From Pocillopora verrucosa (lineage: Eukaryota; Cnidaria; Anthozoa; Scleractinia; Pocilloporidae): a stretch of DNA of 64,000 nt. Every line of letters begins with the position of its first letter. The first letter of the stretch is position 1. This document shows, in pieces, positions 2,481 through 56,132 of this stretch. Location: contig NC_089312.1 of the NCBI RefSeq assembly GCF_036669915.1, positions 29,540,492 to 29,604,491 of the forward strand, given 5' to 3'. The notes under the pieces are model-generated. The model was not told where the DNA came from. It searched no databases and was given only the letters and a program-made list of their open reading frames with translations. The position numbers and the translations under genes are program-made.

Positions 2481-4156
2481 TTACTGCATCCAGCGAACTG
2501 TCCACCACATCAGATTCTGTCCTGTCAATCTTCTGTTGATTTCCTGAAGAGCATCAGGAAGCCTGGACACTAATTCCGGGGGAGGAGAAGTTTTGCTTGT
2601 TTTAGAGCCAGTTGTGCGCGAACTGAATGTTTTGGTTTTCATTCGTCGGGTAACAGATTGGCTGGGTGTCTGTGTTTTCTTCTTAAGGGATAAATGTATG
2701 GCTGCTGGTGTTTGATCTGCCGCCGCCCTAGTCTGGGAATGAGAAAAGTGAGTGATCAATATGTGTTTATGATAGAAACAGATGTTATGAAATGTTACTA
2801 TTTTTTTTTGGCGCCCTACAAAACTATTGTCATATCGGAGAAGCAGCACAATAAAGCCAATAGGGATATGTAAAATGCTTGAAGGAAAATGACAAGCGAA
2901 GAAGGTGATAAACAATGGAGAAAACTGGGGGAATCAAACCCTTAATCAACTCGCATCACAAATAAAGAACTTGATAACTGAACGAGAAAAATAGGCAACG
3001 GGCAGATTAAGATGCAAGGAAGCATAGCGACATTCATCGATTCCTATCCCGCTGACGTCTCCAATGAAGACCAGACGTAATCGCACCTTTGAAAAAAAAT
3101 ACGAAGGTGGAAATTTTGTGGGATGACTAACACTTTGATACGACTTGAAAGCACCCGGTTTCCATGAAACTGAAATGTGAGCAATATGAGTGATACCAAT
3201 TTATCTTCAATGAAAGAAAACTTTAACTTTCCGAGTGTTAAACTACTTTCCTGACCTCGAGTCGTGTCTGTTTAATATTCTTTGTTTTTCTTCTCTTTTC
3301 CCTTGTGAGTCTTCTCACTCTTCTGTTTTCCAATCGAGAATATAGCTCCACTCGATATTCTGGAAAAGGAAAAGAGGTGCCGTGAAGTAAACTATTTTAA
3401 AACTGGCATATGGAGAGTCACACTCTTCCCTCAGGGTTTTCCCAACATGTGAATTAGATTTAAATGAGCACTTAAAGACCGACCCTAAGGGAACTAGTGT
3501 GTTTTGTCTCCTCGAGCCCCCTAATATTCCCTGAGGCGAAGCTGAGGACAACACTGAGGGGCTCGGAGAAACAAAACTCACTCTTTCCCGTGGGAACCGG
3601 CAATCATAAAGAATTCGTTACACCCCAAACTCAAAACTAAGGAAATTACATACAGGTGTTACCGACTTTATTGCAAAATGTTCCAGATTTCAATCGAAAA
3701 TTGTTATAAATTCACGTTGGTGTTTTCCCGTGGAGTTAGTGAGTTTTTACCCATAGCAACTGACAACACCTTCTCCTTCAATCGATAAGTATTTATGTTT
3801 GAAGGTATGATGATGAAAATAAGAGACCTTTTCTCGTCATTTTAAACTTCGGAAAAGATTGAATAATACACAATTCTCAGAAGCTAATATAACACATTCA
3901 TTTGAAATGCTACCGAAGGATATCAAATGGTGGAAGTGGATAGGTAATGAAAATTGGTCTGAATTATCGATAGCTTTATTTACTGGGAGGCGTATACATT
4001 ACCGGACTTGATAACTTGAAGACGCGAATTACAGTCGCAAAATTAATAAAGAAATAATTAATATTAATGGTAATAGGACCGAGTGGAGTCGGTTTGTGAT
4101 CATACGAGTGACAACCATGTCGGACGACCGCGCAGCGGGAGTCCGATTCGTTCATC

Positions 4157-4187
<31 letters not shown>

Positions 4188-5366
4188 ACGAAGTCTTATT
4201 ACCAATTAATCACAAAAATTACAATTCCCGAGAAACAAGAATAGCCAAGTTATGGAAGAAAGGGAAAATTTGGATTAAAAGACTGACAATTTGGTGATTG
4301 AAACCAAGGTTGTGATTGGTTTATTTAAACTACAATTTTGAATGTGATTGGTTTATTGAACTGCCCGATAGCAAACTGTCCGATAACAACTTGGCGAGTG
4401 AATTAGTGGAAAATAGGAGTTTTTTAAACCAATCACAATGGAGGAAATTGTAATTTTTATGATTCATCAAGAAATACTTCTTAGCTTTGAGGGACTGTCT
4501 GCTTTATAATGATTAAGGCTTACCTGAAAATCTCTTTCCACCAATCAGCTTACAGCGTTCAAACACATGGCCGCATGCACATGAAGTGCATGAGTCAGTC
4601 TTCTGAGTCAGATGAGAGAGCGAGAAAATTAAAGCTGTGGCTGCTTAGGCCATTTTAAAATAACTGAATACCGAGATACAATTCTCCACTTACGCTTGCG
4701 CCCACCACAATGGAAATCTTGCGGAGCATGCAAGCAGTTTAAAAATAAAAAGAACCTTTTGAGTCCTACTTATGTGAAATCAATTCTAATCTTTCCAGGG
4801 ATAAGCTTTTTCGCCTTTAAGCTACGATGCCGTGTCGTGAGGAGCATATCTGAGGTCGAACGGGCTCGCGCTAGTTTAGTTTGGTTTTGCAATGATTTTT
4901 GCCTTTCGGTTGTCCAGATTCGTAGTTATTACGACGGTTTCTTCAAATTTAAGTCTGTTTTGAAAATAATAGCATTACCAAAGGGATTGTGGTTAAGCCC
5001 TATCACGCGTGTTTGTCATTCAGCACCAGAAAGGGCGGTACGTCTAGATCGTTCTCAACTCTAAACTACATGAATATCGACACATGGAAAATCGACCGAT
5101 AAACTAGAAAAATGTTAGCAGAACACTTAATTTGGGGAAAAAAGAAGGCAAGAATATTTCACAAAATTAAAGACGAGTACTGATACGATGGGAAAAAGAA
5201 GAAAGGAAGACAGAATACAAATTTTCAGACGACGGAAGATTTGAATATTTAAACTACGGGAAAGAAAGCAGCTGCCAAAAGCGGATTCATCCATAACAAT
5301 ATCTCAAAGTCTGGAGATTTCTAATCTTACCACTGAGTTACAGGCCAAACACTGTTGGAGGACCAT
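2481..5366 (-). CDS. UPF0547 (C16orf87-like) protein, copy 1
   Basis: Four exons on the minus strand: 5331-5366, 4524-4602, 3256-3359 and 2481-2732, with phases 0, 1, 0 and GT-AG borders. They give 156 residues. Exon 1 is MVLQQCLACNSV. Exon 2 carries CTSCACGHVFE followed by IGGKRFS, so this copy has an extra cysteine ahead of the usual CxCG. Exon 3 opens with EYRVELYSRLE and is strongly basic. Exon 4 has a Ser/Thr/Lys-rich linker, then PPELVSRLPDALQEINRR and GQNLMWW near the end. The CxxC...CxCG arrangement suggests a small zinc knuckle formed across intron 1. Human C16orf87 has the same order of CxxC, cysteine-rich CG motif, basic middle and terminal ALxEINRK helix; its molecular role is little known, and association with HDAC1/2 has been reported as far as I recall. 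Family placement is by pattern memory; the exon structure is seen directly and repeats in eight copies. Confidence 0.85.
4056..4209. mobile_element. Palindromic MITE-like element in intron 2 of copy 1
   Basis: Two arms of about 68 bases are imperfect inverted repeats. The left arm starts TAATTAATATTAATGGTAAT; the right arm, read in reverse, starts TAATTGGTAATAAGAC. Both contain GATCATACGAGTG or ATCATACTCGTGA-like sequence near the centre. There is no coding capacity. The pattern resembles a high-copy palindrome that I associate with coral genomes. It is absent at the matching place in copy 3, so it probably inserted after the duplication. Confidence 0.75.
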
Positions 5367-5498
5367 CTTGTCATAGCAAAGATCACGGAATCTTTAGATG
5401 ATTATATCTACGTTTCTGCGCGTTACGACTCACTAGATTCCACAAACATACGAGCTTTAATAATAAGCCACACGCCAGTCTGCCTCGGTATCAAGTGA

Positions 5499-5509
5499 TG
5501 AGTCACGTG
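5499..5509 (-). promoter_or_regulatory. AP-1/E-box element of copy 1 promoter
   Basis: TGAGTCACGTG lies about 132 bases upstream of the copy 1 start codon. It sits in a block (about 5460-5515) that is strongly conserved with copy 3 (16520-16570), where the same place reads TGACGTCACGTG. TGAGTCA is the AP-1 variant of a CRE; CACGTG is an E-box. Binding is inferred. Confidence 0.5.
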
Positions 5510-6190
5510 GCCAAAATTGAATTGATTGCAAACAAGGCAGGTGTGCATGTGTGAGCTGTATTGATGTAGCTCCATGGAATAAGCTGCCGTTGCTGAGATG
5601 ACTTTAAACTATTTTACAAAAAGAAATGAAACTTTTAACTTGTTTTCAACCGGCTGTATGACGAAGCCAAACAGGTTCTGTTTTCATTGAAGAATAATAA
5701 AATTGAAAATCGATCTACTTCACACAATCACATAATTTTAATTTAAACTTTCTGGTAAGAAACTGTGCATTTATTCCATGCAGAACCATTTGTGTGGTAC
5801 TCGGTTTCCTTTGACGTAAAACTTCTATTGTCGCTCCAGTCATTTAATTATTGACTTCCTTATTTTTAATGATTGGTATGTAAGAAATCCCTTGCTCTGA
5901 AAGAAAATAGAAACCGTGGATGTGGGAAGGAAGTACCATCAATTTTCTAGATTCTCTCTTCCCATGAAAAAGCTTAATCAAAGGTTCAAATACATCAGTA
6001 TTCATTTACGGAAAGTCGAAGAACGCTATCGAGCGTAGGATTGTATTGGCCTGTTACTAAGCAATTATCTATTACGTAGGACGTAAATCTTGTCTGATCC
6101 CTTAAGTGGCGTTAAACTCCACAAACATACATCATGAGAAAAATCAAGGCAAACTTTCCGAGCTCGGCCTCAATGGTATCAAGGTAATTT

Positions 6191-6406
6191 GGTATCATAA
6201 ACTGAGTTAATAACGTAAATTGCCGGGCCACCGTTAAGAGTTTGAAAGCTGACGGTTTGAGCGTTAGCCCTAGGTCAGAGCGAGTGACGAAGGGCTAACG
6301 CTCGAAACGTCAGCTTTCAAACTCTTAACGGTGGCCAATTTACGTTATCAACCCAGTTGATAATACCAAATTTCCTTGCTATACTCTCCCACCGACGTAG
6401 CACCAT
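6191..6406. mobile_element. Long perfect-stem hairpin (MITE-like)
   Basis: Arms 6191-6271 and 6291-6367 are nearly exact inverted repeats around a 19-base loop. The inner stem ends read GCGTTAGCCCT and AGGGCTAACGC. A right flank runs to 6406 (CACCGACGTAGCACCA). A half copy of the same family, including that flank, occurs at 34957-35081. It lies between the two alternative first exons of copy 1. Confidence 0.8.
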
Positions 6407-7405: not shown

Positions 7406-7441
7406 CAACTTATTACACGCAATACAACGATCAAACACCAT
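7406..7441 (-). CDS. Alternative first exon (1b) of copy 1
   Basis: This 36-base exon encodes MVFDRCIACNKL and is followed directly by a GTAAGT donor, ending in phase 0 exactly like exon 1 at 5331-5366. No exon 2-, 3- or 4-like sequence lies between it and copy 1, so the simplest reading is a second start that splices over exon 1a to exon 2 at 4602. The same exon with changed residues (MVVERCIACNQL) is kept at 18136-18171 upstream of copy 3. It replaces the first CxxC half of the putative zinc site. Confidence 0.6.
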
Positions 7442-8842
7442 CTGTAAACTTCAGTGACATCAAGGCCAACGAGGTATTAAATTGTCGTTATAAAAAAAGT
7501 TATTTCCTGCTAACAAGGCAATATCAATAAGCTGACACAGCACTGAATCATAATCATACAGCTTTCTTAACTATAAGTAACATCACATGATTATGACGTA
7601 GCAGGCGAAGCGAGATAACTGATGTCATGTCCATTTTCTTTCAATCAAGGGGAAAAAAGGCGCTTGGAACCAGGACTTAGGTAGGCGATACAGAACTAAA
7701 TGTTGTGGGGAAAAGATATCTATTCGATTGTTTCAGGTTTACAATATATACAACGTCAATAAAATATACCTCCTAGTTTTTATTGTTGCACTAAGATGCA
7801 TTTCGTTTGAATCAAAGTCATTTTCACCTGGAAAGCCGGGATCTTTTCTTTGGTTAAATCGTTCAACATTTCTTATTCGTTTGACGTTATACAGTCGGGA
7901 AAATTATGGCGAAAGGTTAATTGATGTTTTTAAACGCCATGTGAAATAAAACCTAGAACTGTTAGGCGTGACTGCGTAGATATAGTACAATTACGACACC
8001 TCCCTTTCATGGATACAGCCAGTCAGTTGCCACAAACAACGAAAAAACAGTCGACATCCTTGTTCGATCATGCATTGGATCGATTGCGATCTTTAACATA
8101 CTCTATAGCAACTTTAGATTAATCATCTAATTTATAATGAATTCTTAGTCCATCCTTTGCATATCCCTTTACAGACTAAACAAGTATTGTCAATTTTTTT
8201 TATTTCAACCAGCATAAGTTTCATTTTCGAGACATTCATGATGTAACCTTTGTTTTTGGCAACAAATGTTTGTCATGACATGATCAAGCAGGAGTCCTAT
8301 GACGCCTATTTTGCTTTGCTCAAAATAACAATGACTCCCTAATTGTATATGGGATTGAAAACAGCTTCCACGCCTGACAATTTCTTTCCTTGCTTGAAAT
8401 TGTGGTCTATCCGTTAAATCGTCCATCAGCCTTAAAGCCCATCAATAAATCCTCCGCATTTTATCAATTCCGTTGTCTCCTCACTTAGATAGAAAAGTTA
8501 CTCATATCAAGGTTTGCACGAGTATTTTTCGGCTCATCTTTTCAGTGAAAGCACCTACGCAGTCCGCGTGACACATTTCAGGACTGGGATGTAGTTGTTT
8601 TTTTCTGTTTGGTTAAACAACCCTAAGCTTTCTAGGGTTCCCTCGTACGAAAGCGAGTTACCGCTATGTTTTTTTTTAAATTTTTTTCTCAAACCAGCCG
8701 TAGACCGAAAAATCAGTCAATTACGGCTACCAGGTTTATGCTGCATCATGGGATAAAATCCAAAAGCGACACGTGAGTTACATCATGGGTTTGAGTTCTC
8801 CTTTTGATGCCCTCTTTGGTTCTTTCACCGTTGGCGTAGCGT
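7442..8842. other. Intergenic stretch between exon 1b and copy 2
   Basis: No supported gene. The part up to about 8060 is duplicated at 18172-18880. The remainder (8060-8842) is AT-rich DNA in which I see no coding or RNA feature. Confidence 0.6.
7594..7600 (-). promoter_or_regulatory. CRE-like half-site upstream of exon 1b
   Basis: TGACGTA lies about 152 bases upstream of the exon 1b start codon, in the block CATGATTATGACGTA that is also present at 18302-18316 in the duplicate. The spacing matches that of the main promoters. Confidence 0.45.
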
Positions 8843-10899
8843 TTATGATAACTGCATTGTCCACCATATCAAGTTCTGTCCTGTCAATCTTCTGTTAATT
8901 TCTTGCAGAGCACTCGGAAGCCTGGACACTAGTTCAGGTGGCACAGCAGTTGTTTCGCTGGATGGCGTGTTGACAGGGCGCGAAAGACGTTTACCTTTTG
9001 GTCTTCGGTGATATGTTTTTGAGCCAAGTGGACAGGTCTTGGGTTTAAGTGCTGAAGTAACAGCTAAGAATTCTTTTGGGTTACTCTAGCGTAGATTTTA
9101 AAACGAAACGGTAAACATTTATCAGTACATACGGCTAGTTCTACACAGAGAAATCCAGGATGAATTAGCTTCGTTTTAAGTGTGAGTCTTATATTGTTAT
9201 TTTGAAATTCAGACATGAATATTCGATGTTTCAGTTAAGTCGATCAGGGGGAGAAAAAATTGGAATTATTTTTGTGGGCTGAGCACTGAATTTTGTTTGT
9301 CCTAAATATACCTTGCGTTCTTTCAGAGGCTGTCGGGTAGTTTCCTTTCCGCTCGCTTTTCTGTTTGTTCTTACCAACTGCTTTATTCTCTTGTTTTCCA
9401 GGCGTGAATACAGCTCAACGCGGTATTCTGTGGGAAAAACAACGACAAAGTTCACGGATTAACTTTTCATTATTATTTAAGAACTAGACCACACTTTCTA
9501 TCAGTTTAGCGATGTAACAATCCATTTTTTTTATAAATGTGAGTTAAACTATCTAGCAAGCGAGCGCGGCCAGTTGTAAACTTGCCCGAGAATCTTTTTC
9601 CCGCGATTGCTTTGACGTCTTCGAGCACGTGACCACATACGCATGTCCGGCAAGATTCAGTTATCTGCAGGAGTGGGGTAAGAATCACAGCATTAGTATT
9701 TTTTAAAACAATTTACAACTTCCGTGTTCAAAAAATATGGCATTTCAACGCAACAAGAAAATATACGAAAGTAAAAGTGCACTAATTTGCACTTTTTTAC
9801 GGTTCGTCTGGAGAACGCCTTGTTATAAGAAATTTCAAAAGAACTTCGAGTTAATCAGCTCCAGAGAGGATTAGTTAAGCTGAAGGTCTTTAATCTGAAT
9901 GGCAAAGAAAAATGGCCCTCTTTAGGAAGATATTTCCCTTTTCTAGGCGAGGATGATGTCGGATGTTTGTTGAAAACAACCCGTTTCGGTCAACAGACCC
10001 TGGTTGAAAATTGGTGCTAGCGCTGTAAACGGAATATTCACTTATCGGGAATCAAACGAGTAGGTAAAGAAAAATTGTTCCCACGTGTCCTTGCTTTCAA
10101 AATCGGTTTTGACCAAAGATGTCTGGCTCGCCAGGGCAGGCGTCAGGGAACAGGGGTCAAGACGATTCCAATATTTTACTGCAGTTGAGTTCACAGCCAT
10201 TGCTCACAAAAAGCAGTGAAACCAAACTTCTGGAGTAACAGCTCATTTTGACGCAACTAAAATCATCGCGGAATTTTTTTACCACAGCACAGCGAGAGGG
10301 CTTCTCAGTAAAGTCTGGTTTCGAAATCTTTATTGTTACACTCCCTCAGCAAGTTTGAATCTTTCCATAAAAGATGTTGTTTATATACATTGTAATTATT
10401 GATTGCCAACAAACCAACCCTTGCTCATTGTAAAAGAAAAAACCGGAGTATTTGAAAAAGGATAAATTACAACCTCTATCTGGCGTCGAAGAGAGCGCTG
10501 TAGACAGCTCCCTCATGTCAGATAAGACCGGCGATCATTGTGTCGCCCGCTCGCCAACGTCCTCAAACGCATATAATGTCGATATTTCTTGCCATATTTT
10601 AATCTCGAAACGCTATGGATTTAAGCCACTGTTGATCGGCTGATTTCCTATTTTAATTTTGGGTCATTCATAGCGAGGTTTTTTAAAACGTTTTAAGCAG
10701 AATATAGCTTGTTCATGTTGTCGTGGTTGACTAAGGGCCGTCAGGATTATGAAAATTAACGACCGACAACAAATTTGAATATCTGCGAGCCAAACCATAA
10801 CTCTGGAGGGACCAATTGTCCCAATTTTAGAGCATAATCCAACCTAAAGCGTCTAAACCTTACCATTGCGTTGCATGCCAAGCATTGCTGTAGAACCAT
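8843..10899 (-). CDS. UPF0547 (C16orf87-like) protein, copy 2
   Basis: Four minus-strand exons: 10864-10899, 9586-9664, 9312-9427 and 8843-9085, phases 0, 1, 0, giving 157 residues. Exon 1 is MVLQQCLACNAM. Exon 2 has ESCRTCVCGHVLEDV and IAGKRFS. Exon 3 begins EYRVELYSRLENKRIK. Exon 4 contains VPPELVSRLPSALQEINRR and GQNLIWW, ending TMQLS. As in copy 1, exon 2 carries an extra cysteine (CxxCxCG). The intron after exon 2 uses a GC donor (G followed by GCAAGT) instead of GT. A full CRE lies 125 bases upstream of the start. The exon 4 acceptor at 9086 is chosen for phase; another acceptor nearby cannot be excluded. Confidence 0.83.
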
Positions 10900-11023: not shown

Positions 11024-11031
11024 TGACGTCA
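11024..11031. promoter_or_regulatory. Full CRE (TGACGTCA) of copy 2 promoter
   Basis: The palindrome TGACGTCA lies about 124 bases upstream of the copy 2 ATG. It sits just upstream of AATAAGCCACA, a string also found upstream of copies 1 and 3, so the whole promoter block is shared. It is the classical CREB/ATF site; use in vivo is inferred. Confidence 0.6.
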
Positions 11032-13455: not shown

Positions 13456-16425
13456 TTACTGCAGCCAGTGTACTGTCCACCACATGAGATTCTGTCCTGT
13501 CAACCTTCTGTTAATTTCTTGAAGAGCACTTGGAAGCCTAGACACGAGTTCTGGGGGCACGGCCGTTTTTTTTGGTACAGAGCCAGCTGTGTGCGAAAAT
13601 CTTTTGGTTTTCATTCGTCGGTGAACCAAACCCGATCTGCCCGATCTGCCGGATGTGTGTGACGCCTTAACTTTACGCGGGGGATGCACGGAAGCTGTTT
13701 CTTCTGTCACTTTGTTGACCTAGGAATAAAACAAGAAAATATTTACAGTAACTAGAGAGAATCTACACTGCGAACACTCGTGGTACATGCCCAGAAAGGT
13801 AAGGCATTCATATTGTTTTCTCTTACATCGTTTAGCTTTACATACGTTAAAAGGCGTCAACGAACTTTATATCACAAAATGATTTAAAGACCACGTATTG
13901 AGGACAGCAGAAAATTGTCGCTTTATCCTTTCTGCCAAGGTGTGTCTTCAGTTAATATTTCCAGGGTCATCATTTCATTTCTTTTTTAAACCACTAACAT
14001 TCACGCCCAATGCGTGGTTTTCATGATGTCGAAGGCACATAGACAATGAAAGGCAAATTAGGCAGGATGGTGCACAGCTGATGGCAAGTAGGTCACGGCC
14101 GCGCCTCTATATTGTTTATTGTAATTTAAGTTCATTCAGAGCATATACTTTTTTTTGTCAGACTTGACCTTGCAGTAACTAAAAGTGAGATAAGGAAAAG
14201 CAAATAACAGAGGTAAGCATTATTCTCGGACTTATGCTCCCCACCACATTCCTCATATCCGTCGCCAGTAGCGGACCATTGACGCAAAAGCTTACGTCGA
14301 TTCTTAAGATCGGGTTCCGCAATTTTTAAAAGAAAAAAAAACCCGAAGATGAAAATCCACCAACCTTTTTCGAAGCAGATTACATGAAGCTTCTCAGTAT
14401 TTTCAAGCAAAACAGACCATAATAAACTATAGCTACAATGTACTCATCTGCCGCCCTACCTTCGTTTTACATGTATTGAATTTTACTGTCAACGATCATT
14501 TTCTATCAGTTATTAGCACCTTGTGTTGCGTCTTTTTGCAATTTTCGGTTCCTCCCCTTTTTTCTCTTGTGAGCCTCTTCATTCTTCTGTTTTCCAAACG
14601 AGAATATAGCTCCACTCGATATTCTGAAAATTCCATTAAAAGACGCAGTCATTAAAAAAATTAATTCGCTACTGTTTACCCGTATTATACAAAACTTCAA
14701 AGATGAGAGTGATCTTCGCAATTATGAATCCTACTTAAGCAGTGATGAAAAAAAAGCCTGAAAAAGACATAACTTCATCTAGTTCTTACATCTGTGGCGC
14801 GATGAACGTAACCGAGACAAGAAAGATGGTTCAGGCTTTTCATTTGCAAAATGTTTAAAAAAAATGAAAGTTACCCGAGGACAAAAAGACACAATAGGCC
14901 ATTTTATAGTTGTGCACTTAGTTGTCAAGCCTTTGATTTGGAGTGAGGCTGAAGTTGACCATGTTGTGATAGAGACTGGTATCTATTCAGTATGATAACA
15001 ATATAATTTACATTTGAAAAGCAGCAAGTTTTGCATCATAACGAGCCTCACTCCTGTTCAAAGGCTTGGCAACCAAGCACGCAACCGAAATGGACTAATG
15101 AGAGCCATAGGTGAGATTTACACTGGACTTCATGCGGCAGATTCGAAACGCTCGAAATGGTAAGTTTTTGGGGTTGAGTTTTGCAGATTATTCTGTCCAA
15201 AAACTGGAAAATATGTTCTTTAGCCAAGGATGTGCAGTTGCTAACCGATAATCGTAAGTTTCAAGAGCCATGAGGATGTGTCTGAGTTCCAACCTACACC
15301 TCAAGCATTTGGAAGTTAATTGAGTACATTGAAACATTTTCTTCAAAGCCTTAAAGCCTTGAACCCATTACAATATCACCCCTGAAACAAACACGAAAGT
15401 CATGAGAATAGGGGAGATGATCACCAACTAAAGCAGCTCTTGATTGTTAAACAAATTCTCCTTGTCAGCCTCTTTGGAAATGTACGGAGAAAAGTATGGA
15501 GAATATACATACTGATGTTAGGGTGTGAAGGGTTAACGCGTCGAAGAAAATGTTTCAAGAGAGCGACTGATTGATTTAAGGTGTCACAGCTAAGTCTTAC
15601 CTGAAAACCTTTTCCCGCCAATCAGCTTGGAACGCTCAAACACGTGACCACACACACACGATATGCGTGAGTCAGCCTTCTATGTAAGATTAAAAACAAG
15701 AAATTATTAACCCTTGAACCATATGAATGTAAACCAGTCCGTCTTTCACTGATTGTGCGCCACATAAATGTGATTGCCGAGAGTAAAAAGACCAAGGATT
15801 GTGATGGCTCAAAAGCTTTTTCAGCTTCGTTTAAAAACAGTAACTCATATTTTTGCGTTCTTTGCTCCGGCAAGTCCATCCTTAAAATACGTTGGTTAAT
15901 CATGTGATCGGAAATGTTTATTGCCTTGTGTTATATCCTCTGTCAGTTTGTCTGCGATTTCTCTTTTGTATTCCTTTTAAATTTCTACTTTAATTGTAGA
16001 TGTTTACTTTCTCGATGTAAGAAAGCGAGTTATTAAAAAACTTTACATCGTGGCTAATATTTAGCACGCGTGTTTGTCATTCAGCACCAGGAAGGGTGGT
16101 CCGTCTGGATCTTTCGTCCATCTTTAACTCGCACTACGCGAAGACGTAAAATCGACTCTTGTTTGAAACGAGTTACAGCTACAGATAAAATGAATGAAAG
16201 AATCGAAGTAACTGAGACCTCACTGTGTAAAGCTCGGTCTTGCTGTCCTACTGATGCAGGGAAAAAACAACGCGAAAAACAGCATACGACGATAGATTTG
16301 AATATTCAAAATACAATCAAGGAAAGCAGCTGCCAGAAGCGTATTCATCCATAACAATATCTTAAAGGTTTGGAGTTTTCTGATCTTACCACTGAGTTAC
16401 AGGCCAAACACTGTTGAAGCACCAT
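13456..16425 (-). CDS. UPF0547 (C16orf87-like) protein, copy 3
   Basis: Four minus-strand exons: 16390-16425, 15601-15679, 14520-14623 and 13456-13719, phases 0, 1, 0, giving 160 residues. It is the tandem duplicate of copy 1: exon 1 is identical at the protein level (MVLQQCLACNSV), exons 2 and 3 have the same lengths (79 and 104 bases), and exon 3 starts EYRVELYSRLENRRMKRLT. Exon 2 reads SRISCVCGHVFERSK then IGGKRFS, so the extra cysteine of copy 1 is an arginine here. Exon 4 has a His/Arg/Ser-rich linker and ends VPPELVSRLPSALQEINRR, GQNLMWWTVHWLQ. The second first exon is at 18136-18171. Confidence 0.85.
14896..15096. mobile_element. Inverted-repeat MITE-like element in intron 2 of copy 3
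   Basis: Terminal arms of about 55 bases form imperfect inverted repeats, with CAAGCCTTTGATTTGGAGTG on the left and CACTCCTGTTCAAAGGCTTG on the right. The centre (about 90 bases) is AT-rich. It is not present in copy 1 intron 2, which has a different MITE. No coding capacity. Confidence 0.7.
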
Positions 16426-16555: not shown

Positions 16556-16567
16556 TGACGTCACGTG
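16556..16567. promoter_or_regulatory. CRE overlapping an E-box, copy 3 promoter
   Basis: TGACGTCACGTG lies about 130 bases upstream of the copy 3 start codon and merges a full CRE with a CACGTG E-box. The surrounding block (AATAAGCCACACG...GTCTGCCTC) is conserved in copy 1. Confidence 0.6.
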
Positions 16568-18135
16568 GCCAAATTTGAATAGATTGCAAACAAGACAGGT
16601 GTGAAGGTTGAAGGTGTGAGTTGTATCAGTTTATCTATGAGCGATAAGCTTCTGTTACTGGGACACGAAAATTTCTACGAAATACTTTGTACGATTACGA
16701 AATTTACTTTACGTTTTAAACTCATTCTGGCCTACTCTTAGACGTCAAACAGTGTTTGGCTTTCAGCGAGGAAAACAGAGTGAAACTTTCAGTTTCAGCC
16801 GTAATTTTTCTGTGTGTATCTACCTGTTAACAATCCCATCTTCATGACCCACCATATCCTTATACACCATCATATGGCCTCATAATATAGTATCTGATGT
16901 TCATCTACTGAGCCTTCATTTGAAAAGGGGGATGGGGAAGGGAGGGCTATTGCGTGATACGGGATTGTTTTTAATTTTCATGACCAGTGAAAGTACGAAA
17001 TTAAAACCCCGTGAGCTGTGAATTTTTCGCTTTTCGCTATAGGTGAATCTTAAAGTTTATCTGATTTTTCGCGATGCGTTATTTCTACTTTTTGATGCGT
17101 GTGATACGTGACCAAGACTCCAAGGACGAAACTTGGCAGACTCCTTATTGACGTCAAACTTCACAAAAGACAAATTTCAAGGAATAGCTCCCCATGCTAT
17201 GCGTCAATTTCTTGGTGCAAATTTTAGAGGAGTTACTGTTAGCTTTGTTGATCTTGAAGGATTATCTAAGTTTTTAAACGCGGTTGTATGCAACCAGGGC
17301 TAATCTTTCTCTATTCTTAATCATGGTCTCTCATTTTTGGTTTATTCTCCTGATTTTTATGATCATCTGTCTGACCAAATTTATCTGTATCTTTAGGTTC
17401 CTGCAAAACGAAGTAAATTCTGAAAGTCTTAAACAACGAGTTAAAATATGGTGAGGTAGCGTGTGACTATAAATTGGCTGAATTTTCCGAAAGAAACGAA
17501 GGGGTTGATTGCCTTCCATATTTAGCGTTTCTTTATCTTTGCTTTGCAATGATTTGCGGTATTTTTTCTAGAGTGCTAGCAAAACCGCATAGTGGACTTG
17601 ATCGCATATTTCAAATACACCCCGAACATTATCTTACAAGAAAATGGAGGCGTGATCCTTGGTGTGTCACGCGAGAAGTTTCTACTAAGGCGTGACGAGA
17701 AACGAGGAGTGTTTCACGGAAAGCGTGTGGGTATTCACTTTATTTCCTCGTAAGCAAAGGAAAAAACGTCAGATTGTACTCCCTTCAAAAACAGAGATTG
17801 GTAAGAAAGGTGTTCTTCCCGTGTACTATTTGATAGTAACACTGAGCTGGTGGAATGTTTTTCTCTATTTCTTACGAGACGTATTAAGATATTTTCGCGA
17901 TCTTTGCACGCGAAAGCAGCGCATTTACACTCAAAAGCTACCTTATCTGTAATTACTTCGTTACATTGATTGTGACTTAATTCTCATAATTTGGGCAAAA
18001 TCTTTACCGGAAACATAACTGTGAGGGATATATGAAACGCTGAGGTTTCACATAAATTATGACGACATTACACAACAAAGCATTTCTTAAACATCACTAT
18101 GGTTTAGCTGAGAATACTCAGTCATTCAGACTTAC

Positions 18136-18171
18136 CAACTGATTACACGCAATGCAGCGTTCAACAACCAT
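18136..18171 (-). CDS. Alternative first exon (1b) of copy 3
   Basis: A 36-base exon encoding MVVERCIACNQL with a GTAAGT donor, phase 0. It is the duplicate of the exon at 7406-7441. Start codon, both cysteines, the Asn after the second cysteine, reading frame and donor are all kept although the flanks have diverged, which argues that it is used. Confidence 0.6.
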
Positions 18172-18310: not shown

Positions 18311-18318
18311 TGACGTAA
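18311..18318 (-). promoter_or_regulatory. CRE-like site upstream of exon 1b of copy 3
   Basis: TGACGTAA lies about 139 bases upstream of the exon 1b start and is conserved with 7594-7600. GTGATGTCA follows nearby. Confidence 0.45.
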
Positions 18319-21670: not shown

Positions 21671-21841
21671 AGCTCCTAATTACTAGCCAACGTGTAGCTG
21701 TACCCTCCCCCAGAAGGTGAAACGGAAGCGAGGGAACGTCTATGAAAACCTGACACTTTTCCTCGCTTCCGTTTCATCTTGTGTGTGGGGGGGAGGAGAG
21801 GGAGGGTACGGCTACACGTCGGCTACTAATTACATGCCCAT
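21671..21841. mobile_element. Near-complete hairpin (MITE-like)
   Basis: The arms contain TAATTACTAGCCAACGTGTA on the left, pairing with TACACGTCGGCTACTAATTA on the right. A second inner pair is GAAACGGAAGCGAGG and CCTCGCTTCCGTTTC. The whole element can fold as one long stem with a loop of about 30 bases. It ends about 190 bases before the copy 4 start codon, inside its promoter region. Confidence 0.75.
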
Positions 21842-25528: not shown

Positions 25529-25536
25529 TGACGTCT
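25529..25536 (+). promoter_or_regulatory. CRE-like site of copy 5 promoter
   Basis: TGACGTCT, one base from a full CRE, lies about 144 bases upstream of the copy 5 ATG. Further TGACG half-sites follow at about 25567 and 25588. Confidence 0.45.
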
Positions 25537-34689: not shown

Positions 34690-34800
34690 GGTGGAAACAC
34701 CTTGAAGCAGGCTCGGATGGCGAGATAAGATCCGGTTCCAATCAGGGCCACGATTATTCCTTACACTGTAATGAAGATCATCGACATTTGGACATCTAGG
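34690..34800 (-). pseudogene. TM1 fragment of a broken GPCR
   Basis: The minus strand matches the first helix of the GPCR at 29801-32080 base for base over long runs: CACCTTGAAGC and CGAGATAAGAT on the plus strand against CACCTTGAAGC and CGAGAAAAGAT at 31951-31985. In frame it reads VALIGTGSYLAIRACFKVF, comparable to LALIGNISFLAIFARFKVF of the intact gene. An in-frame TAA interrupts the helix just before GIIVALIG, and nothing like TM2-TM7 follows. It is therefore a fragment of a former tandem receptor gene, about 2.7 kb upstream of the intact one. Confidence 0.75.
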
Positions 34801-40600: not shown

Positions 40601-42066
40601 CTGCCGGCGGCAAGGCGGTTATATTACATCAGTTGCACGTGAGTGGTACTTTAAAAGGGCATCAACTTCGATTCTGAGAAGAACCAAGATCACAATTTAT
40701 TTGAGAGAATAGTGGAAAAGTGGAGTATGAACGGTTACTGCGACGAGAGTGCAAAAAAAGAAAAGAGAGGAGGGCTCTTAATATTCATCTGTTAACTTGT
40801 CTATCGTTTACTTACACTTGCATGCTGGGAATTCTACCGCTATGACTGTATCCTCTAGTTAAGAGGATCGTATCATCTTCTTTTTGGCTCCGATTCAGTC
40901 AAAATCAGTTTTAAGGGCCATTTCCCGGGTTCAAATATGTCAGCTAACTCTTATTGACTTTTCAGCAATGATTAAGAATCACCTTTTTCTCAGGGGCATA
41001 AGTCTATGACAATTACTTTTTCGGGCAGCATTTCATAATTGATTTTCAAGGACGGGAAAGAAAGGTTATAGCTACTTATCATGAGAAAACCAAATAATTT
41101 GTTTAAGTAGCCGAACGAAATATTCAGCGTTGGAGACACTTGACAACACACGTTCAAACCACGCGCTGATAATTACTTTCGAAAGTCAAGTCTTCCAAGG
41201 TAAAAAATATAGTGAATAAAAATATATAAATAAATAGAGAGAGGGGATGACTTTATTTGGTGGCTTAAGGAGATAACAGTGAACCAGGATTTTGAACAAA
41301 TTAGAGTCTTAGAAGAATGTATGAGGTTTAACTTGTTGTGGAAAGCAAAAATTGAATCTTAACTCTGACTCGAGATCTCACAAAAGCTTTCAAGTTACGC
41401 AAGCCTATTTTAACGTGACAAGAATGCTTCGATTTTTTACCCATGTAATTAAGAATACACGAACGTGACATTAGTTGATTTACAGGTTAGATTATTTGCT
41501 GTCAGAGGGAATTTTGCAAGAGGTATTTTCTTCCTTCACAGCTGACGCCAAAACCGCCATAACTGATCTGATGCACTCTCGGACTAAATTCGTCTCTTGT
41601 CAGAGACAACGTACAACAGCTGCTGGTTTCAGTCTCCTATACTTTTATGGTCAAACACGCTTTTATTCCTCTTTAGTTTCGAAGTGCTGAGGCTAAAAGC
41701 GGCATAAATTACGTCGTCTGATATACAAGAATTGCTACGTGTTACTGGCATGGCAAAATCAATATCTTAACTGCCAGCGAAAATTTTGGTTTGGCGTGGT
41801 GTAAAGTGCTTTCTTATGAATTCAGCTCTTCGTTTTCTTGTAAAACTATACGATGTCAATAAAGAATTACATGCTGTGTCTGATGCTTTCGAAAAGCACG
41901 AATCTAAGGCGATGTGAAGTTATTAATTTTCGCCAGACAAGTTGAAGCACATGTGTATTCAAAATCGGTCGACAGAGGATAACGTTCGAAATAAATAATA
42001 TGAACGATCTTTGAGACACAGTCTACTCACCACAGCATTACAGGCTAAACATTGTTGAACAGACAT
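37694..42066 (-). CDS. UPF0547 (C16orf87-like) protein, copy 6 (divergent)
   Basis: Four minus-strand exons: 42031-42066, 39177-39255, 38959-39101 and 37694-37942, phases 0, 1, 0, giving 168 residues. Exon 1 is MSVQQCLACNAV. Exon 2 has SCQCGHVFEDVKQIAGKRFS. Exon 3 starts EYRAELYWRLESKRMKALSK and continues into an Asn/Asp-rich acidic tail ending DNNNNE, unlike the basic tails elsewhere. Exon 4 carries basic KKRILQRRVK and the diverged end VSPEVLYRLSKALEEINKKI with TQNMVWKSLV. Exon 4 has no internal start at its head and is easy to miss. The 2.8-kb first intron, the longest among the main transcripts, contains the CAGT repeat. A full CRE lies 147 bases upstream. It shares its upstream space with copy 7 (divergent, 4.5 kb apart). 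Confidence 0.82.
38466..38590. repeat. Dispersed AT-rich repeat in intron 3 of copy 6
   Basis: TTTACGGTTTTAC, ACGATTAACGGTTAACATTA and ACGCCAAACGGCTAAAAC. The reverse complement recurs at 58012-58110 (TTTAGCCGTTTGGCGTTAAA, TACCGTTAGTCGTTAAAA). Noncoding. Confidence 0.65.
39464..39633. repeat. (CAGT)n minisatellite in intron 1 of copy 6
   Basis: About 40 imperfect four-base CAGT/CAGC units with higher-order AGCCAGTCAGACC blocks. An open frame through it (Ser/Gln/Val repeats) is a by-product of the repeat and not a gene. Confidence 0.9.
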
Positions 42067-42213: not shown

Positions 42214-42221
42214 TGACGTCA
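42214..42221. promoter_or_regulatory. Full CRE of copy 6 promoter
   Basis: TGACGTCA, about 147 bases upstream of the copy 6 start codon (minus strand), flanked GTG-TGACGTCA-CTG. Confidence 0.6.
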
Positions 42222-46433: not shown

Positions 46434-46468
46434 TGACGTCACGCAGTGAACACTCAACACCTATAAAT
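46434..46468 (+). promoter_or_regulatory. CRE plus TATA box of copy 7 promoter
   Basis: TGACGTCA at 46434-46441 ends 118 bases before the ATG. TATAAAT follows at 46462-46468, which would place transcription start near 46495. A second CRE-like TTACGTCA lies at 46391-46398. This is the clearest core promoter in the cluster. Confidence 0.6.
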
Positions 46469-46559: not shown

Positions 46560-49223
46560 ATGGTTCTTCAACGGTGTCTTGCTTGTAATTTATTGGTAAG
46601 TGACGAGATTAGTAGTGAATGATCGATGTTTTTCATCACTATGCTAAATATAGCTATATAGTTTGAAACCTCTTTCTCTCTATTTTTCGATCTTGAACAT
46701 TTTAACTGGGTAAACCGATTCCAGAATCATTGAAAACAAGCGCGAAATGATGACGTTTACTTTTTGTCTCGGAGTTAGCCAACAAGAAAAAAAAAATTCT
46801 GCTTTAGTTTTCTACAGTACAGTTTCGTTGCTTCGTTGAAAATAATTTCTTGAAGGAATTGCTTGCCACAGCTAGCTTCAAGTGAGTCCAATGTCAGACA
46901 TCATTAAGATGAGTGTGTTTTTGAATATTTTTTTCATGAAATGTTCTTAACAGCTGTTTACTAGAGAAATACTTTGAACCTTCCCAGACTGCGATCAAAC
47001 TCTATTCGCCAAGAAAACGTCATATTTGAAAAACAAAAGTACAAAAATTAATGAAATAAAAAAAGGAGCTAGAGTGAGGTTGTTATGATGAATTGACTCT
47101 GAAGAAGACATATCACGGGGAAAAATGGATAGGAGCAGTAAATTTTTACTGATAGGTGTCAATATCGAGGATCCACGTAATGTCTTAAACAATAATGCAT
47201 CATATACTTTGCTTCTTAGGAATCACAATTATCTTCGTACAGTTATCTCTAGTTCCCCTTAAATCAGTGCTGTCTTTGTTATGTCTTACCAATGAAACTA
47301 ACTTATTTAGGTGTATTTAGCATTTTTTTAGATCTCTCAAGGATAGTTATATATACATCAGTAAAATAACGTAACACAAGAGATTATAATATTACGATCC
47401 CTTGCGTATTTTGATGGGAAATCTTCTGATCGTGACTTCCTCCATGTAGCTATTGCGAAAGAAAACGTTTTATGATCCTTCCTTATTGAGGATTAGTTTC
47501 AGAGGTCTTTCCATCTCTCAAATTGAAGAAATATCAAACACCGTGTTTTAAATCATCATTTTTTGCCCTAAATATCAATGTGCCTTGATTCTGATTTTCT
47601 TGGGTACTAATATTTTCTACTCGACAGAGCTAGACAATTTAAAAAATGAAGTTAGAATCTTAAGGGCCGACTAACCCCTTAGGGTTACAGCAACTTACAT
47701 ATTTAAAGTGGCTCCAATTCACGTTTTACGTGCACATTTCTTGCTAAAAGTCGATCTGATTGATGCTTTTCACCAATTTTCATTACTTATAATATATATC
47801 GCACTTTTAATTTTTGGTCTGCAAAGGGCCGCAATTCTTTGAAGGCCTGTATTCAGTTGAAGCGTGTGATCGGAGTCTTACGTGTATTGAGTTTGAGCTT
47901 GAAAAGATCGCATTAAGCGATTTTAAAAAGTGATATAATATATACACAACTTATTAATTAGAACTTACTTGAGCTACAACTGACTTGATCGGTAGATAAC
48001 TGGATCATCAAAATCATGCGTGTGTGGTCACGTCTTTGAGGACACGTCTCGTCACATTGGAGGAAAACGATATTCAGGTATTAAAACAATGTATTCCCTA
48101 TTCCAGATTTTTCTTTTCCGAAATGACTTGGATGTGTGGTTAAGCCTGCGAAAAAATTTAACTTGTTCCAGGTCTTCAGTTGGTAACCAAAATCTTGACT
48201 ATCTTGTGTTCAAAAAGATTCTAAAATTTCTCTGACAGTGATTGCGGATCATTTATGAAAAAATATCCCGTGTTTGTGACACCGCCATAAGGCAGTTTAT
48301 TTAAAATGTCTTGGATGCCCTTAGGTCGTCTCTTTTAATAATAATTCAATTTCTCTGGTTTTCTTTCTCATATTTTGGTTTTACTAGAATACCGAGCCAT
48401 GTTGTATTCTCGACTGGAATTTAAGAGACAGAAAAGAGAAGCCAGGGAAAGCAAAAAGGCGAAGGCATATCAACAGGAACCATCAATGAAACACAAGGTA
48501 ACTGATTGACAAAAATTCTGATTGGCTTTTATAAAAAATTATTTTTTTCGAGACTGAGAAGTCACCAGCGTAAACGTAAATGAAATTCCCCGATGATAGG
48601 TTGCAGCAAAATGACTCTGAGGCGATATATCAAAACGATGGGCTCTCGGTGAGCTACAGTCACTCGTGAATTTTGAACGAAGGGAACTAATAACGGAACT
48701 GGATTAGCAAGTCAGTCCTACTTCCAAGACATAGTTTGAAATTCTCCTCTTTAGTTGCTGTACATATCGCTTGCTTTGAATTAGTTTAAAGAGTTTAAAA
48801 TAATAATAAAAAGGTTAAAATTTCTGACTGACAAGTTTGGCTGCTGTTATCACCTGTTTTCTGGGTAATTTATTGACGTTGTGAGGGAGTATATTGCGTT
48901 TAATTAATGATTCGTCAATTTTAAAGGATAAAGAAATTCCCGGTTTTAGTTGCAAGGCCGCTTTTTGAAATTTCTTTCTACAGGAACAAAAGGCTGTAAC
49001 AACGAAAAAATCCCACTTTAAACCTGCAAGGCGACGAACAATAAGAAAAAGAAATTCAGCGAAAGGGAAAATTGGAAGGACATCATCATCGATAGTGAAA
49101 CAACATCCGGTCAAGAGCACGGAAGTTCCAAAAGAACTGTTGTCAAGATTTCCTGTTGCTCTCAAAGAAATAAACCGAAGACTTCTGGGACAAAATATGG
49201 TATGGATAGCATTGTGCAGTTGA
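46560..49223 (+). CDS. UPF0547 (C16orf87-like) protein, copy 7
   Basis: Four exons: 46560-46595, 47996-48077, 48388-48497 and 48984-49223, phases 0, 1, 0, giving 155 residues. Exon 1 is MVLQRCLACNLL. Exon 2 reads SKSCVCGHVFEDTSRHIGGK then RYS, with Tyr in place of the usual Phe. Exon 3 starts EYRAMLYSRLEFKRQKREA. Exon 4 is rich in Lys/Arg/Ser and ends VPKELLSRFPVALKEINRRL, GQNMVWIALCS. Exon 2 is 82 bases as in copy 8 (79 in copies 1-4 and 6), so copies 7 and 8 probably share a recent ancestor. AATAAA at 49350 is a likely poly(A) signal. Confidence 0.84.
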
Positions 49224-49620
49224 AGAGTCCAAACTGTTTGAGGCACTGGCACGAAAGCGAACTAAAATTCACGCGAAGGAAAACAGTCTTCAGTGATGCA
49301 AGAAGACCTCCCGAAACCTGCCGTTTGGAACGCGTGGCAAGGATATGAAAATAAAAGCGCTTTGAAAACAGGAAGTCCAAAACTGTATGACACGATTCAC
49401 GTTATTGGGCAAAGTTATTAACAGGAAAGGGAACATCAGAAATTCCTCTCTGTAACAAAACGTGAAGCTATTTTGGTTAAAGACTTCTCTTATCTTTTCA
49501 GGGCTATTTTAGAATTTGTAAATTTCCATTTTTATAATATTGTATTTCATCCAAAAATGGCTTCGTATAGGTGAATACCTAAAACCAATATGTGCCCAAT
49601 AACTCAAGGATTTCTTTAAA

Positions 49621-49685
49621 GGTATATCACTTCCAGAGACTCTCTGGAAGTGATATGCCTTCATCACATTTTCGGAAAATGTGAT
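49621..49685. repeat. Two adjacent perfect palindromes
   Basis: GGTATATCACTTCCAGAG pairs with CTCTGGAAGTGATATGCC across a very short loop. Three bases later, ATCACATTTTC pairs with GAAAATGTGAT. Both would form stable stems in DNA or RNA. They lie about 400 bases downstream of copy 7. Confidence 0.75.
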
Positions 49686-51850: not shown

Positions 51851-52227
51851 AAGTGATCAAAAAGCTATGCCTAAAAGAATTTACAAAAATTACCCGGCTA
51901 TGATGGCGTTAAGTGTTTGGAACAGGCTGTAAGTTCTGTAGCACCGACAGCATAAATATAGGAAAAAGGACAAGTCATTTAATTGAATCATATCTTGTTT
52001 GAAAATTTTAAGATCTTAGGAAACAATGAAAAAAACAATAATGAAAATCAGGGACCATTACTTAACACTCTGCAATCTAGCTACCATGTGTTTTGCAAAC
52101 CTAGATTCCTTGTACTAAACCTATTACCCCAGGAGCGAAATGCAAACCTGTATGAACGGATCGCTTGGGCGATCGCTTACGTCTGTTGTAATTTTGTATT
52201 AGTCAGCATTGAAATACTTTTGAAATA

Positions 52228-52446
52228 ATGTCCGATAGCGTTGTATACTTACCTTCAGCAAGCTCTACCGAGAGTTGCGATACATCGTACTCAAGTTGTA
52301 GAGAAGAAATGGAAGTTGCGAGTACAATTCAGCCCTACGAAGGAGAACCGCGTGCATCAAACGAAGATTTCGACGAAGACCGACAAACACGGTTTATCGC
52401 CTGCGGTGTTCAGGTCAAGATTAGAACAAAAAACTCCCGTTACTGA
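52228..52446 (+). pseudogene. Possible fragment of a P2X7-C-domain type protein
   Basis: An ATG-started frame of 72 codons: an acidic Ser-rich start, then ASTIQPYEGEPRAS and NEDFDED. The PY..EP.AS-acidic pattern resembles the start of the P2X7 intracellular-domain proteins that are common and often transposon-linked in cnidarians. The cysteine-rich part that should follow is missing. Unknown otherwise; this may be chance. Confidence 0.2.
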
Positions 52447-53984: not shown

Positions 53985-53992
53985 TGACGTCA
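53985..53992. promoter_or_regulatory. Full CRE of copy 8 promoter
   Basis: TGACGTCA, ending 134 bases before the copy 8 ATG, in the context GACAC-TGACGTCA-TGA. Confidence 0.6.
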
Positions 53993-54126
53993 TGAATGGT
54001 TACCCAGTTTTCACGCGGCTTTGCATAAGGTTAAATATAATAGGATAACCAAATATTTACGACTTGAACGTTTCCAAGCAGTGAATAAAGAGCGACGGAG
54101 GAGAAGGCTTGAAAACTTGATTCATT

Positions 54127-56132
54127 ATGGTTCTTCAACAGTGCCTCGCTTGTAATAGTTTGGTAAGTCCCGTCACATTCTCGCCGTGATTCTGGTTTTG
54201 CAAAATCGAATTTTTGGTCGTTGCTTTTGAATTAGTGTGGAAGTCGGTGATGTGAACATTAATTCATTTCTTTGGTCGATTAAATAAACAAACTGGAAAT
54301 TTCGCAAGATTTAACGTCAGGCTTACGAAATTTTCCAAAGCAGTCTTATAATTCGCTTAAATCCTTGAATCGATATATATTTTCTTTGCCCAAGGTGCGT
54401 ACTAAACAGTAACACTACCAACTAGGTACAAGCCGCAAAATAATAACATTGATTTCCGTACGGATATTGCCTGTTAAAATGATACCGGGTCAGAAGCTCC
54501 CAAGAACTATGCGGAAGCCGACAAGACTCTGGAAGTGTTATTCCAGTTAACTGTAGAGGTCGGAATAGATCAAATAATTTCAGAGAAATTCTTTCAAACT
54601 TCCGTTTAAAAGCGACCAATGCGTTTAAGTCAAATTTTGAATAAGGATAGGATTATTGCATGTAATCAATTGATGATCACGGTTATGGTGATTTTACGTT
54701 CGACCGAGTATCTGATGCAGGGATACGACTGTTTTAGCGAAGCAGTCTACTCGATCTATTCTCACGAACAAGTCTCTATTCCTCAGATTACAGAAACATC
54801 AAGATCATGTGTGTGTGGCCACGTACTAGAAGATGCGCATCGCTTTATCGGAGGCAAACGTTTTTCAGGTACAACTGAATAACATTCTTATAAAGTGCGA
54901 GATAGGACTTACGAATAGCCATCGGATAAATCAAAAGCTCAGGGAGGTTTCGTTTTTGTTTAATAATCTGGAAAATTCTTATTTCTCTCCATCAATTTGT
55001 TCAGAATATCGAGCAGAACTTTACTCTCGTCTGGAGAGCAAAAGCAGGAAGAGAGAAGAACGTGAGATCAAAGAGCAAGCAAAACTCCAGCTTGGAAGAA
55101 AGGTATTATTTCTAAATATGCGACATGAGGAATTATGTAAACTACAGTATTGTTTATTTTCCGGATCTATTTTCTCGAAATCTCGAATCTCGGAAGACGT
55201 GACAGTCACCGGAGACGTGAGGTGAGCTCTGTTAGGAGGTCACGTTTCTACTTCCTTCTTCCTTTTAAGGAATATTATCACTGAATTAGTAAACAACCAA
55301 ACACCGCTCCAGCAATGTGGGCATAAAATCTCTCGCAACTGGCAAATAAGTTAAAGGCAAGTTGTTGCGAGTTCATTTGGTGTCAGACAGCATTGCAGCT
55401 TACAGAGTAAACTTTGGCGCTTGTTCGAACATAAGCATCTTACATTGTGTATCGCTAACTGTTTCCAAGAAACAAAGGACTGAAAAAACCAACCACAGGT
55501 AATTTACAGCTGAAAGATTTAGATTTTACGGTTTTAAAGTCTTGTGAGCCAAACGAATGAACGAGAGTTAGATGGATGATCGATAGGTGATGTATTTTGT
55601 GTCTTTTATGCTAATCGAGGACAAAGTACAGTAAATACATAGATTTAGTAGTAATTGCGTGGTGTAAATAACTTGTTGAACATTTTACAATCGCTAGGAG
55701 GAGCGCCGTTGTGTTATTTGAAAAGTGCAGTGGACTTGAAGAGTCCGCTGCCGAGGAACAAATTCATCTGAGCGCCAGAATGACCTCTCGACTTCAAATC
55801 CATTTCCCTAAACCGCAGGTCACGCTTTTCAAAAATGTAAATTAACTTTAATCGTCTTTTCGCAGAATATCATGGCAGGATCAGTGTCAGAACAACCAGG
55901 ATTCAAACCTCCCGTGAAAAGAAAGCCATTAGCAGCAAGGAAAACAAATAAGAAAAGACGAGTGAAGAGGGGAACATCTCGATTGCAAACAGGGCAGTCC
56001 GCAACTAAGCGGAATGATGGCAAAAGCAGTGTACCACCGGAACTTTTGTCAAGGCTTCCTGCTGCTCTGCAGGAGATTAATCGAAGAATACTGGGACAGA
56101 ACTTTATGTGGTTAGCGTTACAACTGGACTGA
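54127..56132 (+). CDS. UPF0547 (C16orf87-like) protein, copy 8
   Basis: Four exons: 54127-54162, 54787-54868, 55005-55102 and 55866-56132, phases 0, 1, 0, giving 160 residues. Exon 1 is MVLQQCLACNSL. Exon 2 reads ETSRSCVCGHVLEDAHRF and IGGKRFS. Exon 3 starts EYRAELYSRLESKSRKREER and is a charged likely helix. Exon 4 has basic VKRKPLAARKTNKKRRVKRG, suggesting a nuclear localisation signal, then VPPELLSRLPAALQEINRRI and GQNFMWLALQLD. It is the most compact and best-formed member and is useful as the reference. Distal AATAAA at about 56634 is possible. Family assignment rests on the shared CxxC, CxCG and terminal EINRR signature. Confidence 0.86.

Follow-up and report, generated by a model that had tools for sequence, protein, structure and literature searches.

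An array of nine genes from a divergent C16orf87-related subfamily, most sharing a promoter element, in the coral Pocillopora verrucosa

Introduction

The C16orf87 family is represented in human by a single copy. Here we describe an array of nine related genes, g1 to g9, in the coral Pocillopora verrucosa. Eight of them lie in a window of 64,000 nucleotides, by which we mean the whole stretch of DNA analyzed (C1:29540492-29604491, C1 being contig NC_089312.1), and the source genome comprises 353 Mb in 52 contigs. We compare the array with C16orf87 and with the canonical C16orf87 gene that this coral also carries.

In the available text of one paper, C16orf87 is described as a MIER corepressor subunit through which HDAC1 and MIER1 interact, and the name HDIP is proposed for it (PMC13133221). 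A preprint, as far as its available portion goes, calls the protein MHAP1 and presents co-purification, Förster resonance energy transfer (FRET), and cross-linking data (PMC13041959), and excerpts of a third paper place it together with ARID5B, MIER1, and HDAC1/2 (PMC13284713). The same available text of the HDIP paper gives Cys16, Cys19, Cys30, and Cys32 as the zinc cysteines of the human protein and reports that binding was unaffected when five cysteines were mutated, that the last 24 residues of mouse C16orf87 were needed for HDAC1 binding in vitro, that AlphaFold models place the C-terminal helix (human residues 133-150) between ELM2 and SANT, and that purified C16orf87 left HDAC1 activity in vitro unchanged (PMC13133221). 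A homologue outside vertebrates, Nv-C16orf87 of Nasonia, has its transcript in the germ plasm; the available portion of that report names one such gene and mentions no array (PMC6785909), compared with nine genes here. In the open-licence PMC literature, we found no paper joining C16orf87 or UPF0547 with coral, and no MIER1 appeared among the matches listed for cnidarian or coral HDAC corepressors.

A preliminary description of the window had called the family poorly characterized. That statement is out of date, since C16orf87 is, in the available parts of these papers, a described HDAC1/2-MIER subunit (HDIP/MHAP1). The accompanying suggestion that the expanded genes encode a set of paralogous adaptor subunits has gained force because C16orf87 is now described as the subunit linking HDAC1 and MIER1 (PMC13133221, available text).

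Results

Nine four-exon genes form the array

The exons of g1 to g8 were modeled by hand, guided by signature motifs, and the 110 kb on each side of the window (284 kb in total) were examined by tblastn at E ≤ 1e-3. All eight four-exon genes previously proposed at window positions 2481-56132 could be modeled, with stops only at the ends of frames encoding 152-175 amino acids (aa). Intron phases were 0, 1, 0 in every one, and the first two exons were nearly constant in length, as had been described: exon 1 was 36 nt in seven genes and 39 nt in g5, and exon 2 was 79 nt in five genes, 82 nt in g7 and g8, and 88 nt in g5. The modeled introns were GT-AG throughout except for intron 2 of g2 (GC-AG). 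Along the window, g1, g2, g3, and g6 lie on the minus strand and g4, g5, g7, and g8 on the plus strand, in numerical order, as follows.

2481-5366, minus strand: g1, 156 aa; exons 5331-5366, 4524-4602, 3256-3359, 2481-2732; spliced model with splice sites; closest to g3
8843-10899, minus strand: g2, 157 aa; exons 10864-10899, 9586-9664, 9312-9427, 8843-9085; spliced model; GC-AG intron 2
13456-16425, minus strand: g3, 160 aa; exons 16390-16425, 15601-15679, 14520-14623, 13456-13719; spliced model
22030-24906, plus strand: g4, 152 aa; exons 22030-22065, 23031-23109, 23878-23990, 24676-24906; spliced model
25681-27795, plus strand: g5, 175 aa; exons 25681-25719, 26131-26218, 27049-27155, 27502-27795; spliced model; zinc ribbon with three extra residues
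37694-42066, minus strand: g6, 167 aa; exons 42031-42066, 39177-39255, 38959-39101, 37694-37939; spliced model; best sub-threshold UPF0547 match
46560-49223, plus strand: g7, 155 aa; exons 46560-46595, 47996-48077, 48388-48497, 48984-49223; spliced model
54127-56132, plus strand: g8, 160 aa; exons 54127-54162, 54787-54868, 55005-55102, 55866-56132; spliced model

The cluster size of eight given earlier has to be raised to nine, as a further gene, g9, lies outside the window on the minus strand at -2787 to -182, that is, 182 bp to its left. It pairs with g2, both genes having a GC donor at intron 2, and with it the open four-exon models number nine of nine. Beyond g9, no further array member was detected within 110 kb on either side at the tblastn threshold used.

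The two ends of the proteins are conserved and the middle is not

The signature motifs noted in the preliminary description were present, and 30 alignment columns were invariant across the eight window proteins. An N-terminal zinc ribbon, CxxC-x10-CxC, was found in eight of the nine array proteins (x13 in g5), a cysteine spacing equal to that of human C16orf87 as given in the available text. It is followed by [GAC]GKR[FY]S and then by YRxxLYxRLE in exon 3. The middle of each protein is a basic linker of 75-89 residues with a net charge of +8 to +20. Eight residues of the last exon (R, A, L, E, I, N, Q, and W) did not vary among the eight window genes; they belong to a C-terminal segment with the pattern A-L-x-E-I-N-[RK]-[RK]...Q...W, which is taken to be a putative helix, and they fall in the segment corresponding to the HDAC1-binding end of C16orf87. 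The array proteins resemble C16orf87 in their small size and in having a middle that varies but a C-terminal segment that is conserved. Among solved structures, no relative was found, the single match being at chance level (eS17, E 0.12).

When the array (62 kb) was compared with itself by blastn, 28 rows were obtained. Because most of these (20 of 28) touch exons of two genes, the likeness within the array is beyond chance. The remaining rows consisted of one pair of extra first exons described below, one 54-bp block beside g1 and g3 (5001-5054 and 16062-16115), four palindromes, one repeat, and one echo of a G protein-coupled receptor (GPCR) exon, and other intron DNA gave no alignment at this threshold. 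The copies have diverged strongly at silent sites: the proportion of silent differences (pS) was 0.69-0.89 in 34 of the 36 gene pairs, 0.47 in g1/g3, and 0.46 in g2/g9. The ratio of replacement to silent change (dN/dS) was 0.16-0.36 in the 11 pairs where it was computable. In every one of the 36 pairs, the two ends had a smaller proportion of replacement differences (pN) than the linker did (0.05 versus 0.32 in g1/g3), which bears out the earlier claim of a real expansion with fixed ends and diverging linkers. These results point to purifying selection acting on the protein ends, with a middle that is probably relaxed or diversifying.

Some of the gene models have soft spots. The exon 3 donors are weak in g1 (gtcagg) and g3 (gtgcta), where the true site could be a few codons away, and in g2 and g5 the acceptor of exon 4 was picked by reading frame. 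Such features would be expected if the copies were pseudogenes or artefacts of annotation. Against this explanation, the two least saturated pairs gave dN/dS values of 0.28 (g1/g3) and 0.21 (g2/g9), and all nine genes have open frames and usable splice sites; we regard it as hardly credible.

The array is a divergent sister subfamily of C16orf87

The proteins of g1 to g8 were scanned against the Pfam UPF0547 profile (PF10571; gathering cut-off 29 bits, whole protein), the family to which the preliminary description had assigned them. None of the eight reached the cut-off. Two gave sub-threshold scores, g6 with 19.4 bits (E 0.0012) and g4 with 12.4 bits (E 0.18), and six had no UPF0547 match at E ≤ 1. 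The other Pfam lines at E ≤ 1 (Cas9_REC, Abp2, TfoX_C, Ribosomal_L37, etc.) were all below their cut-offs and were taken as composition noise.

A genome-wide search with the UPF0547 profile gave a single place, on contig C3, which exceeded the cut-off. Splicing by hand gave a canonical C16orf87 gene (C3:26388171-26391983) of five exons and 236 aa, scoring 42.2 bits. With an exon 1 of 36 nt (phase 0 end) and an exon 2 of 82 nt (phase 1 end), the C3 gene has its first two introns in the same positions and phases as the array (exons of 36-39 and 79-88 nt). The array profile matched C3 residues 1-30 with E 2.4e-8, and the array C-terminal segment matched the C3 tail, near the end of both, with E 8.5e-4; none of 300 shuffles of the first 105 C3 residues, and none of 300 shuffles of the tail, equaled the respective score. 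The differences are also plain. The C3 gene is single as far as searched, compared with nine array copies, and it has five exons, a longer product over the UPF0547 cut-off, and two GRP motifs that are absent from the array proteins. The array proteins carry the YRxxLYxRLE block, absent from the C3 protein, and, unlike C16orf87, they combine a score below the Pfam cut-off with the extra [GAC]GKR[FY]S / YRxxLYxRLE block and a tail with Q...W. The GRP motifs of the C3 gene read KRGRPKGSKNK, one in each of two exons (L002:6511-6627 and 7706-7984, L002 being the C3 locus), and presumably resemble AT-hooks.

A second locus was found on contig C8 (about 2839700-2841950). It has an exon 2 of the array type (zinc ribbon, GGKRFS, phase 1 end) and a last exon of the array type carrying LALAEINRRLTSQ...W, the tail matching the array with E 5.6e-9. 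Unlike the array members, it is solitary. Because exon 1 was not found in the 3.9 kb upstream and exon 3 was not found between the two exons, the locus may be incomplete. Genome searches at E ≤ 10 with g8 (at least 19 matches) and g6 (at least 21 matches) revealed no locus beyond the array and C8; these counts are lower bounds, the best candidates having been scored, and the C3 gene was missed by both queries. As judged from these searches, the genome contains, besides the array of nine, a single canonical C16orf87 gene and a solitary locus of the array type whose state is uncertain.

That the array genes are true C16orf87 orthologues was considered and rejected, given the separate canonical gene on C3 and the array scores below the Pfam cut-off. 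Because the array proteins stay below the UPF0547 cut-off and yet match C3 in the zinc ribbon, the C-terminus, and the first two introns, we read the array as a divergent sister subfamily of C16orf87 on the strength of these sequence comparisons, and descent of the nine small, very basic proteins from a C16orf87-like gene is the best explanation. The earlier family assignment thus stands as kinship, through both ends and the first two introns shared with C3, and falls as membership by the Pfam cut-off.

The array proteins may no longer belong to the HDAC complex: the zinc ribbon and YRxxLYxRLE would bind another partner and the C-terminus would serve a different dock, with the C3 protein alone serving the corepressor. 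This would account for the UPF0547 scores, the weak C-terminal likeness to C3, and the loss of the GRP motifs, and 22 of the 30 invariant columns lie within the first 49 residues of g1, including the block not seen in C3. It fits less well with the invariant last-exon residues of all eight window genes, which sit in the segment matching the HDAC1-binding end of C16orf87, and with the C8 locus, where an array-type zinc-ribbon exon is again accompanied by an array-type tail. On balance, we consider departure from the complex rather unlikely.

Most promoters of the array share a CRE at a near-fixed place

An exact palindromic cAMP response element (CRE), TGACGTCA, starts 126-155 bp before the ATG in six of the nine genes (g2, g3, g6, g7, g8, and g9). 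CREs and AP-1 motifs are read by basic leucine zipper (bZIP) factors. The elements in the window promoters are as follows; strand is given for the non-palindromic ones.

11024-11031, unstranded: CRE TGACGTCA, exact match, 132 bp before the g2 ATG
16556-16563, unstranded: CRE TGACGTCA, exact match, 138 bp before the g3 ATG
42214-42221, unstranded: CRE TGACGTCA, exact match, 155 bp before the g6 ATG
46434-46441, unstranded: CRE TGACGTCA, exact match, 126 bp before the g7 ATG
53985-53992, unstranded: CRE TGACGTCA, exact match, 142 bp before the g8 ATG
5499-5505, minus strand: AP-1-like TGACTCA, motif match, 139 bp before the g1 ATG, in the place of the CRE in its close relative g3
25529-25536, plus strand: one-mismatch CRE TGACGTCT, motif match, 152 bp before the g5 ATG

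Over the 284 kb, ten exact CREs were present, eight of them inside the array span (six in promoters and two elsewhere), and an exact CRE occurred in 0.135% of random 36-bp windows. Seven CREs were observed in the window compared with 0.75 expected, a number that none of 100 shuffles reached. When the nine genes and the two extra first exons described below were taken as 11 start regions, TGACGT or ACGTCA was found within 350 bp in nine of them, compared with 11% of random stretches (binomial 1.2e-7). Two things inflate these enrichment figures: closely related genes do not have independent promoters, and the choice of motif followed inspection of the data. The results show a promoter layout that the array genes share and in which, for most of them, the CRE occupies a near-fixed position. 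By contrast, no CRE with up to one mismatch was found within 600 bp of the start of the C3 gene, which has two half-sites only. The two exact copies of TGACGTCA elsewhere in the span lie at 17149-17156, between g3 and its extra first exon, and at 27343-27350, in intron 3 of g5.

TTATTAT was found at about -100 in g1, g2, g3, and g9, and TATAAA at -98 in g7. In g2, g3, g7, and g9, one of the two lies 28-37 bp downstream of the CRE, an arrangement that is weak evidence as the pair is common (0.30 per 350 bp).

The array could also stem from ordinary tandem duplication, with the copies retained by chance or for dosage; their products would then be largely redundant, and the CREs would be inherited and say nothing of shared use. 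The genome does contain other arrays, such as two made up of GFP-family exons on C1, and close pairs in the present array share promoter blocks by descent. Two observations are difficult to reconcile with this explanation: pS reaches 0.69-0.89 in nearly all pairs and yet every frame is open, and the CRE is kept in g6, g7, and g8 although blastn no longer aligns the promoter regions of these genes with the other copies. We therefore rate mere duplication as very unlikely to be the whole account.

g1 and g3 have candidate alternative first exons

A stricter first-exon pattern run over the 284 kb gave 11 matches, of which nine are the first exons of the genes and two are extra exons, one upstream of g1 and one upstream of g3, on the strand of these genes. 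Each extra exon is 36 nt long and contains an ATG and CxAC. The four features are as follows.

7406-7441, minus strand: candidate alternative first exon of g1, MVFDRCIACNKL, donor GTAAGT, phase 0; found by pattern, conserved with the g3 copy
18136-18171, minus strand: candidate alternative first exon of g3, MVVERCIACNQL, donor GTAAGT, phase 0; found by pattern, conserved with the g1 copy
7594-7600, minus strand: TACGTCA within the conserved block that precedes the g1 extra first exon; motif match
18311-18317, minus strand: TACGTCA within the conserved block that precedes the g3 extra first exon; motif match

The two copies align over ~200 bp including the upstream block (69.5%); of the DNA that separates them from the genes, the greater part does not align. 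The two exons differ by three silent and three replacement changes. If used, they would alter the first half of the zinc ribbon with the cysteines kept. They could instead be remnants of lost copies.

HDAC-domain and ELM2 exons in the genome

HDAC-domain exons were found at five scattered places in the genome, so the HDAC domain shows no array. A genome search with the ELM2 profile was insensitive: the default threshold gave no match, and at E ≤ 10 ELM2 exons appeared at four places, three of them over the cut-off (best E 0.00126).

Neighborhood of the array

The GPCR reported earlier inside the cluster was recovered as two 7tm_1 exons of a class A receptor on the minus strand, at 29801-30601 (16.0 bits) and 31403-32128 (28.9 bits), each alone below the whole-protein cut-off of 30.5 bits. 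At 34696-34757 there is a 62-bp echo of its first exon (81%), which is perhaps a decayed second copy. The four palindromes (6177-6381, 21677-21832, 28254-28415, and 49619-49661) are 67-93% self-complementary over 43-209 aligned bases and look like small non-autonomous transposons. Neighboring genes encode a PX-domain protein and two C2-domain exons (59528-60640, plus strand; 57603-58025 and 62705-63505, minus strand), and an open frame at 52213-52443 on the plus strand looks coding by eye. The genome has 74 GFP-family matches over the cut-off, all on C1 in two groups (0.67-0.88 Mb and 28.36-28.79 Mb), the second about 0.75 Mb from the array. Rfam gave no match at gathering score in the window, and a comparison with viral contigs gave 39 pattern matches, none confirmed.

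Discussion

What is new here is an arrayed, divergent subfamily of a known family, most of whose members have a promoter element in common. Such genes may already be annotated in databases for other corals. Compared with C16orf87 and its single human copy, the array has nine copies and CREs in most promoters.

We put at roughly 45% the probability that the array is a CRE-driven set of interchangeable HDAC-MIER adaptors. In the manner of C16orf87/HDIP/MHAP1, the C-terminal segment would dock onto HDAC1/2 and onto MIER at its ELM2-SANT junction, and the linker and the new block would give each paralogue its own partners or targets. CREB/ATF-type bZIP factors would switch most of the set on together through the common CRE (AP-1-like in g1), so that the arrival of a signal would change what the HDAC-MIER corepressor is composed of. 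For g1 and g3, a variant first half of the zinc ribbon would come from a second promoter that has a first exon of its own. In its fullest form, this proposal describes a nine-gene, largely CRE-driven cassette through which light, cAMP, or stress re-equips a constant HDAC core with different targeting arms, with g1 and g3 adding a choice of zinc-ribbon first exon; that form is possible but doubtful.

Alternatively, as a competing set of decoys, the array proteins would dock and displace the C3 subunit, and their induction would weaken or redirect HDAC-MIER repression. The docking end is kept in the array while the GRP motifs and the long linker of C3 are missing, and the CRE promoters would make the supply inducible, the C3 start being without a CRE. 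Yet, in the available text, purified C16orf87 left HDAC1 activity unaltered in vitro (PMC13133221), so displacement might do little. Judged from sequence features of this kind, a decoy role appears quite unlikely.

Several findings weigh against an inducible set of adaptors. The kinship with C16orf87 is distant: no array protein scanned is over the Pfam cut-off, the C-terminal array-C3 match has an hhalign probability of just 24%, the tryptophan of the array tails is missing in C3, and the GRP motifs of C3 are missing in the array. The promoter layout is incomplete, with no CRE in the g4 promoter and an altered one in g1 and g5, and, besides having been chosen after the data were seen, the CRE place was judged against random windows and shuffles as the baseline. 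Because 25 of the 36 pairs are saturated at silent sites and have no dN/dS, selection on most copies rests on the open frames and conserved ends. A tree of 11 rows supports g1+g3 only, and its branches to C3, C8, and g5 are long; we therefore make no claim about the order in which the copies arose. Finally, given the insensitive ELM2 search, ELM2 genes may be expanded too.

If the adaptor reading is true, this coral lineage would multiply an adaptor of a histone deacetylase complex while the deacetylase domain shows no array. The array would then be a natural comparison set for C16orf87, whose role is being described in 2026 papers, in which nine paralogues reveal the residues that are kept (zinc ribbon and C-terminal segment) and those that are freely changed (linker). 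The shared CRE makes the proposal testable by coral RNA-seq under light, feeding, or stress.

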